The notes beneath the pieces were generated by a model that was given only the letters and a program-made list of their open reading frames with translations, did not search any database and was not told where the DNA came from. The position numbers and the translations under genes are program-made. From a virus, in the IMG/VR virus record IMGVR_UViG_3300020411_000477, positions 1-20,238 of that record: a stretch of DNA of 20,238 nt; one strand, given 5' to 3'. Positions 1,826 to 1,949 of the stretch are shown here, piece by piece. Positions within the stretch are counted from its first letter, which is position 1. The number at the start of each line of letters is the position of its first letter.

Positions 1826-1898
1826 ACGTCCGTTCATCCTTTTATTAGGACGCATGAAACCACAGCATGGAACGGGGTTGTGGTACTGGAGAATTACT
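1826..1898 (+). promoter_or_regulatory. Glutamine-II riboswitch (Downstream-peptide RNA motif)
   Basis: The sequence contains the blocks remembered for this motif: CGTTCATCC, then GGACGCATGAA, then GGAACGGGG, and a Shine-Dalgarno just after. The pairings fit. P1 is CCGTTC (1830-1835) with GAACGG (1870-1875). P2 is TCCT (1837-1840) with AGGA (1847-1850). A pseudoknot stem pairs ACCACAGC (1859-1866) with GTTGTGGT (1877-1884), eight pairs including one G-T. That H-type pseudoknot is the known architecture of the glutamine-II class, in which L-glutamine binding stabilises the pseudoknot and limits ribosome access. The SD GGAG (1888-1891) lies three bases beyond the pseudoknot. The motif is known from cyanobacteria and marine phage-like DNA, upstream of short peptides. 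It starts about ten bases after the dioxygenase stop, so here it is probably intra-operonic. Confidence 0.85.
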
Positions 1899-1949
1899 AT
1901 GTCAGTAAGACTTAAGTATCGTGGTGTAACTTACACAAAAAACATTTAA
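1899..1949 (+). CDS. Riboswitch-controlled mini-protein, 16 residues, DUF4278-like YRGVxY core
   Basis: The ORF encodes MSVRLKYRGVTYTKNI and stops at TAA. The ATG at 1899 is preceded by GGAG at 1888-1891 with a 7-base spacing, one of the better ribosome-binding sites in the window. The core LKYRGVTY matches the beginning of the small cyanobacterial DUF4278 domain (YRGxxY), here cut to almost nothing but that core. The function of DUF4278 is unknown to me. An in-frame ATG at 1854 would give 31 residues, but it lies inside the riboswitch and lacks an SD, so 1899 is preferred. Its position directly after a glutamine-II riboswitch is the arrangement that gave the 'Downstream-peptide' motif its name. 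It may be a functional micro-protein or a leader peptide for the next gene. Confidence 0.7.
   Translation: MSVRLKYRGVTYTKNI

Follow-up and report, generated by a model that had tools for sequence, protein, structure and literature searches.

The question raised by this locus is what a glutamine riboswitch, followed by an open reading frame (ORF) of only 16 codons, does in the genome of a T7-like cyanophage. The window, i.e. the whole stretch of 20,238 bases from a virus record that was analysed, is a fragment of such a phage, with its genes in the order hli, psbA, 2OG-Fe(II) oxygenase, riboswitch and mini-ORF, PF24653 Phage_OMP, a 62-aa ORF, major capsid protein and tail genes. Earlier work has established this class of RNA, the ligand it binds and its association with YRG/DUF4278 proteins. 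Type-2 (Glutamine-II) aptamers bind glutamine in vitro and, according to a review, a Prochlorococcus copy activates expression (PMC6316151); the targets are DUF4278 proteins (PMC6316151, PMC6698751), pseudoknot formation has been proposed in a crystal-structure paper to free the ribosome site (PMC6698751), and the occurrence of the class has been described as apparently limited to marine picocyanobacteria (PMC6316151). We think it probable that in T7-like cyanophages this riboswitch controls translation of a YRGxxY micropeptide, with glutamine turning synthesis on and the peptide acting in trans. New here are the viral setting, the fixation in a lineage, the minimal ORF with a single YRG unit and a candidate expression platform embedded in coding sequence.

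Class and structure of the aptamer

A preliminary description of this DNA, made from its letters, had placed the interval in the Glutamine-II/Downstream-peptide class, and the Rfam covariance-model run agrees: RF01704 is the sole above-threshold Rfam match in the window (cmscan), with E values of 4.6e-13 over a 401-base stretch and 2.3e-11 over the window (Table 1). The type-1 glnA riboswitch, RF01739, was rejected as the class, scoring 18.5 bits against a cut-off of 35. The three pairings read earlier from the letters, P1, P2 and a pseudoknot, lie where they had been placed, but the pseudoknot consists of six Watson-Crick pairs in the window rather than the eight first claimed. P2 has eight pairs, including one G-U, and the last three bases of its 3' strand, GGU (1882-1884), double as the base of a downstream hairpin.

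The aptamer is under selection as an RNA. Among 25 diverse phage aptamers, 97.1% of cells are paired by standard pairs and 40 cells have changed on both sides, with a covariation score of 0.298 compared to 0.096 for shuffled and 0.016-0.045 for slid alignments. P1 and P2 covary across the phage homologues; the inner pseudoknot pairs are invariant and so speak neither for nor against the pseudoknot, and its outermost pair is C-G in 19 of the 25 sequences and A.G in the other 6.

Table 1. Features of the riboswitch and mini-ORF, in window coordinates
Feature	Position	Strand	Basis
Glutamine-II riboswitch aptamer (RF01704)	1828-1884	+	cmscan 56.0 bits, gathering 33; covariation in homologues
Pseudoknot 5' strand CCGUUC	1830-1835	+	sequence; no variation at the inner five pairs among 25 phage sequences
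P1 hairpin UCCU/AGGA	1837-1840/1847-1850	+	cmscan alignment; compensatory changes at 2 of 4 pairs
P2 5' strand ACCACAGC	1859-1866	+	cmscan alignment; both-side changes at 4 of 8 P2 pairs
Pseudoknot 3' strand GAACGG	1870-1875	+	sequence; homologue alignment
P2 3' strand GUUGUGGU	1877-1884	+	cmscan alignment; covariation; folds
Candidate expression-platform hairpin	1882-1920	+	MFE folds; recoding and swap controls; arm covariation
Hairpin stem GGUACU/AGUAUC (predicted)	1882-1887/1915-1920	+	MFE fold
Shine-Dalgarno GGAG	1888-1891	+	sequence; 7 nt 5' of ATG 1899-1901
Hairpin stem GAG/CUU (predicted)	1889-1891/1911-1913	+	MFE fold
Hairpin stem UUACU/AGUAA (predicted)	1894-1898/1904-1908	+	MFE fold
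16-codon ORF MSVRLKYRGVTYTKNI, YRGVTY core	1899-1949 (16 codons + stop)	+	conserved in homologues; dN/dS 0.31

Distribution and genomic position

Riboswitch and peptide are a fixed feature of a T7-like cyanophage lineage, across many genera. When whole records were searched with the Rfam model, 17 of 26 T7-like cyanophage records carried one above-cut-off Glutamine-II copy each, including P-SSP7, P-SSP2, NATL1A-7, NATL2A-133, P-GSP1, S-RIP1, S-RIP2, S-TIP37, S-TIP28, S-CBP1, S-CBP4 and SS120-1; S-SBP1 and S-CBP3 gave weak matches and retain the YRG ORF, and in the same search Glutamine-II was not found in S-B28, WH11-B, DSL-LC07, S-SRP01, S-CBP2, P60 and Syn5. The leader was matched in 25 phage records by blastn, and IMG/VR pattern scans, isolates and the window together yield at least 94 copies, the IMG/VR numbers being lower bounds and not frequencies. 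The element sits between psbA (or a scaffold gene) and the major capsid gene in the 17 of 26 reference records and in dozens of IMG/VR contigs. On most sufficiently long contigs the element lies downstream of the end of psbA and about 300-600 bases ahead of the capsid gene, or up to ~1.5 kb ahead where other genes are inserted. Capture of a host module that was then retained by chance, with no role in the phage, would fit the resemblance of aptamer and peptide to the host versions; it is highly improbable in view of the one fixed site across many genera, the near-saturated synonymous change around an invariant core and the compensatory changes.

The gene that follows varies. The preliminary description had suggested that the switch perhaps also governs the exported protein encoded next (PF24653 Phage_OMP), which the relatives do not support: gp222/OMP is shifted or missing, or another neighbour takes its place, while riboswitch and peptide are kept. 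The OMP gene was rejected as the target since the downstream neighbour is not constant among relatives. In the window, a terminator-like hairpin (2522-2547) and a -10-like TATAAT (2553-2558), both consensus matches only, lie ahead of the capsid gene and make direct control of the capsid gene less likely.

Two further observations stand apart. Immediately 5' of the major capsid gene, at about 2605-2697 of the window, lies a conserved structured RNA of ~90-105 nt that is also seen at L298, L305, L309, L311-L313, L324 and other loci. It is built from a hairpin GGAGGCACCTCAGAGTCGGACCTCC (or a T-arm-like GGGAGGTGCAAATCCTCCC), a UACG-tetraloop hairpin, CCGUCUAGACGG and GUGG-GAUAGA-CCAC; the tetraloop hairpin shows apparent covariation (CUG-UACG-CAG, CAG-UACG-CUG, CGG-UACG-CCG), the GUGG/CCAC stem reads GUAGG/CCUAC in L062 and GUCUG/CAGAC in L316, and comparison with Rfam 15 gave chance-level matches only. 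Furthermore, a contig (L226 / L298) of a bacterial-collection genome assembly carrying several host-type Glutamine-II copies has the podovirus order hli, psbA, Glutamine-II, YRG peptide, gp222 and capsid genes, and is probably DNA of an infecting phage.

The mini-ORF and its peptide

The 16-codon ORF that had been pointed out just past the aptamer, behind a Shine-Dalgarno (SD) sequence, has counterparts with the same core in the homologues. Among the matches listed, YR[GS]xxY is encoded at 87 of 87 homologous loci (copies with at least 160 nt of downstream DNA), compared to 2.7% for 170-nt stretches drawn at random from the same contigs, and all 17 Glutamine-II-bearing reference records have a short YR[GS]xxY ORF downstream. 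The Y, R, G and second Y are unchanged in 55 distinct sequences, in which Arg uses five codons and Gly four. In these sequences dN/dS is 0.31 in the frame of the mini-ORF and 1.2 and 1.8 in the other two, values that are approximate as synonymous sites are far diverged and near saturation. The codons of the mini-ORF are under purifying selection and are not a chance frame.

The peptide has two forms: in the short form only a few residues separate YRG from the start, and in the long form an N-terminal VELQARIREQ-like stretch precedes the same core. The short-form ORF is without annotation in NATL2A-133, NATL1A-7, P-SSP7, P-SSP2 and P-GSP1, and long-form ORFs carry the label hypothetical protein, e.g. 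in S-RIP2 and S-TIP37. In a MAG filed as Porticoccaceae (L161 / L281), Glutamine-II occurs with a long-form peptide whose core is YRS and not YRG; this is probably a phage contig within that bin. The likeness of the core to DUF4278, proposed in the preliminary description, holds for the YRGxxY core itself and for long-form peptides, which match the C-terminal half of PF14105 at 14.7 and 17.9 bits, below the 25.3 cut-off; it does not extend to the short forms, as phage peptides of 20-21 aa had no Pfam match, the 16-mer of the window being under the length minimum of the tool. Only a T4-like phage relative passes the PF14105 cut-off. The phage peptide shares with DUF4278 proteins (PF14105; the IF17 N-terminus) the YRGxxY core and glutamine-riboswitch control, but consists of a lone YRG unit encoded by a very short ORF. 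In the GS inactivating factor IF17, the part that carries DUF4278 is dispensable for IF17 function (PMC6316151).

Like the picocyanobacterial RF01704 riboswitches, including the Yfr6 and PMM1846 leaders, the phage elements have the same sequence blocks, P1, P2 and pseudoknot, and a short YRG ORF downstream at a similar aptamer-to-ATG distance. They differ in being viral and present once per genome, compared to 3-6 copies in the host genomes searched, and in an ORF reduced to a single YRG unit. Peptides of 33 and 57 residues, such as MTLIYRGQKYVQNKEAAKKQHNELTYRGKTYTS, are encoded by Prochlorococcus loci under Glutamine-II; it is their C-terminal YRG unit that the phage core resembles. This host comparison was made with the Rfam model; a genome-wide pattern returned mostly another target, MNNLLQIREKIK..., a 56-aa ORF without YRG that Glutamine-II precedes in Prochlorococcus (L126, L127, L292, L300), so that not every host target is a YRG protein.

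The glnA type-1 riboswitches (RF01739), known from tandems in T4-like cyanophages and from a copy reported in the methylophage Melnitz, have a related aptamer, and the T4-like copies also precede YRG proteins; the window has a different P1-P2 intervening region, and the myophage copies are in tandem. On T4-like cyanophage contigs (L014, L017, L018, L037, L066, L070, L072 and others) we observed tandem type-1-like glutamine elements, CGTTCA..GGACGCAAGTAAGCCGACTCGGAACGG and a second full copy, before DUF4278-type MAQVTYRGVKY... proteins. On other contigs the second copy is shortened to CGTTCATCC and is followed at once by the ATG of another small ORF, and several copies score just under the RF01739 cut-off.

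A hairpin within the codons

When leader and ORF were folded together, the window and most short-form relatives were predicted to form a hairpin that the earlier reading had not anticipated, in which the K-L-K-Y-R codons of the peptide are the pairing partners of the P2 end and the SD, and the start codon is looped (AUGUC in the window). In short ORFs the leader-codon duplex has a predicted energy of -8.2 kcal/mol compared to -6.3 for peptide-preserving synonymous recodings (P 2e-9), and in long ORFs -5.8 compared to -4.4 (P 1e-4), the latter difference losing significance when a flat codon pool is used; 200 random arm swaps gave no duplex as strong as the native one. Pair 5, between a leader base and the wobble position of the codon that precedes Tyr, appears as C-G, U-A, G-C and G-U, and is paired in 21 of 36 sequences where shuffling gives 13.5 (P 0.001), and 34 of 44 short copies keep at least five of the expected pairs. 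As the sequences are related, all of these P values are optimistic and overstate independence. Leader and codons are constrained at the level of RNA, and because the hairpin is stronger than recodings and swapped arms, covaries and overlaps P2, it is probably the expression platform. The phage hairpin reaches the YRG codons, whereas the same SD-occluding hairpin was not seen in the host Glutamine-II loci folded.

Hairpin and P2 compete in the models because both use GGU. Enforcing the aptamer lowered the predicted cost of opening the SD by a mean of 1.0 kcal/mol in short forms (P 5e-4) and by 2.1 kcal/mol in a long-P2 subclass, in which the SD pairs more locally; long ORFs with an 8-9 pair P2 showed no significant shift in SD opening. 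In the window itself the predicted change is only 0.4 kcal/mol, most of the hairpin persisting with P2 enforced. Pseudoknot locking alone was rejected as the switch, as locking the strands gave no mean change in SD exposure, and so was an anti-SD inside the CGUUCAUCC block, which was not found as a general partner.

The pairing of these codons with the SD and with the end of P2 could also mean that the ORF acts mostly in cis, as a leader: the codons would serve as RNA platform, and the act of translating, not the product, would matter through mRNA opening, stability or coupling to the next gene. Codon choice points to an RNA-level constraint of this kind: the first Tyr codon is TAT in 83 of 87 copies and the second TAC in 85 of 87, where 61% of the Tyr codons in long ORFs of these contigs are TAT. 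The next ATG (1959), moreover, is only 9 bases past the stop in the window. Of the opposite Tyr choices within YRGxxY, the hairpin explains the first at most. However, the hairpin does not include Gly and the second Tyr, which are nevertheless invariant as amino acids, the downstream gene is inconstant, host and T4-like phage glutamine riboswitches with other leaders likewise precede YRG proteins, and the terminator-like hairpin lies ahead of the capsid gene. We consider a mainly cis-acting ORF unlikely.

Proposed mechanism

In the mechanism that we favour, translational control of a peptide acting in trans, the aptamer would be carried on mRNA downstream of psbA, its leader presumably transcribed with, or shortly after, the psbA region. 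With glutamine scarce, the P2 3' end and the SD would pair with the K-L-K-Y-R codons and the hairpin would close around the start codon. With glutamine plentiful, pseudoknot and P2 would form and reclaim the GGU base of the hairpin, so that the ribosome site would open more easily and the peptide would be made in infected cells. Switching on by glutamine is the likely direction, mainly from host precedent, and the small change predicted for the window supports it weakly. P2 continues into the hairpin arm with no spacer, and several copies are predicted to keep a stable hairpin even after trimming, which would suit the opposite direction, in which the glutamine-bound aptamer stacks on the remaining hairpin and keeps the SD shut. 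We regard this as quite improbable, as the Prochlorococcus type-2 riboswitch activates expression (PMC6316151) and aptamer formation lowers rather than raises the predicted SD-opening cost in most copies.

Under the favoured mechanism the product would be one YRG unit, the C-terminal one of the host peptides found under the same riboswitch. We infer a role in trans because podovirus type-2, T4-like phage type-1-like and host riboswitches all precede YRG proteins; the peptide would most likely act on host nitrogen metabolism, with glutamine synthetase or PII as candidate partners by association only. A bolder reading, which we hold to be possible but doubtful, is that a lytic lineage has fixed a nutrient-sensing riboswitch with the platform in its own peptide codons, and that the peptide is a stripped-down host nitrogen-regulatory unit that tunes host glutamine metabolism to infection.

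Significance

In the open literature searched, phage glutamine riboswitches were mentioned only for T4-like cyanophages and Melnitz-like phages, and none of type 2 was described from a phage; an earlier entry, for instance in Rfam species lists or subscription papers, is possible. Most of the marine T7-like cyanophages examined carry a single copy of the type-2 riboswitch next to psbA and the capsid gene, where it precedes a tiny conserved peptide that genome annotation has mostly missed. The coding-embedded hairpin is a concrete, testable prediction of an expression platform, and cultured pairs such as P-SSP7 and Prochlorococcus MED4 allow direct tests of glutamine sensing in infection and of the function of the YRG/DUF4278 peptide. 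Through this riboswitch the virus may read the nitrogen state of its host during infection and, if the bolder reading is true, the locus would be a dual-coded RNA/peptide sensor by which a virus both reads and steers host nitrogen.
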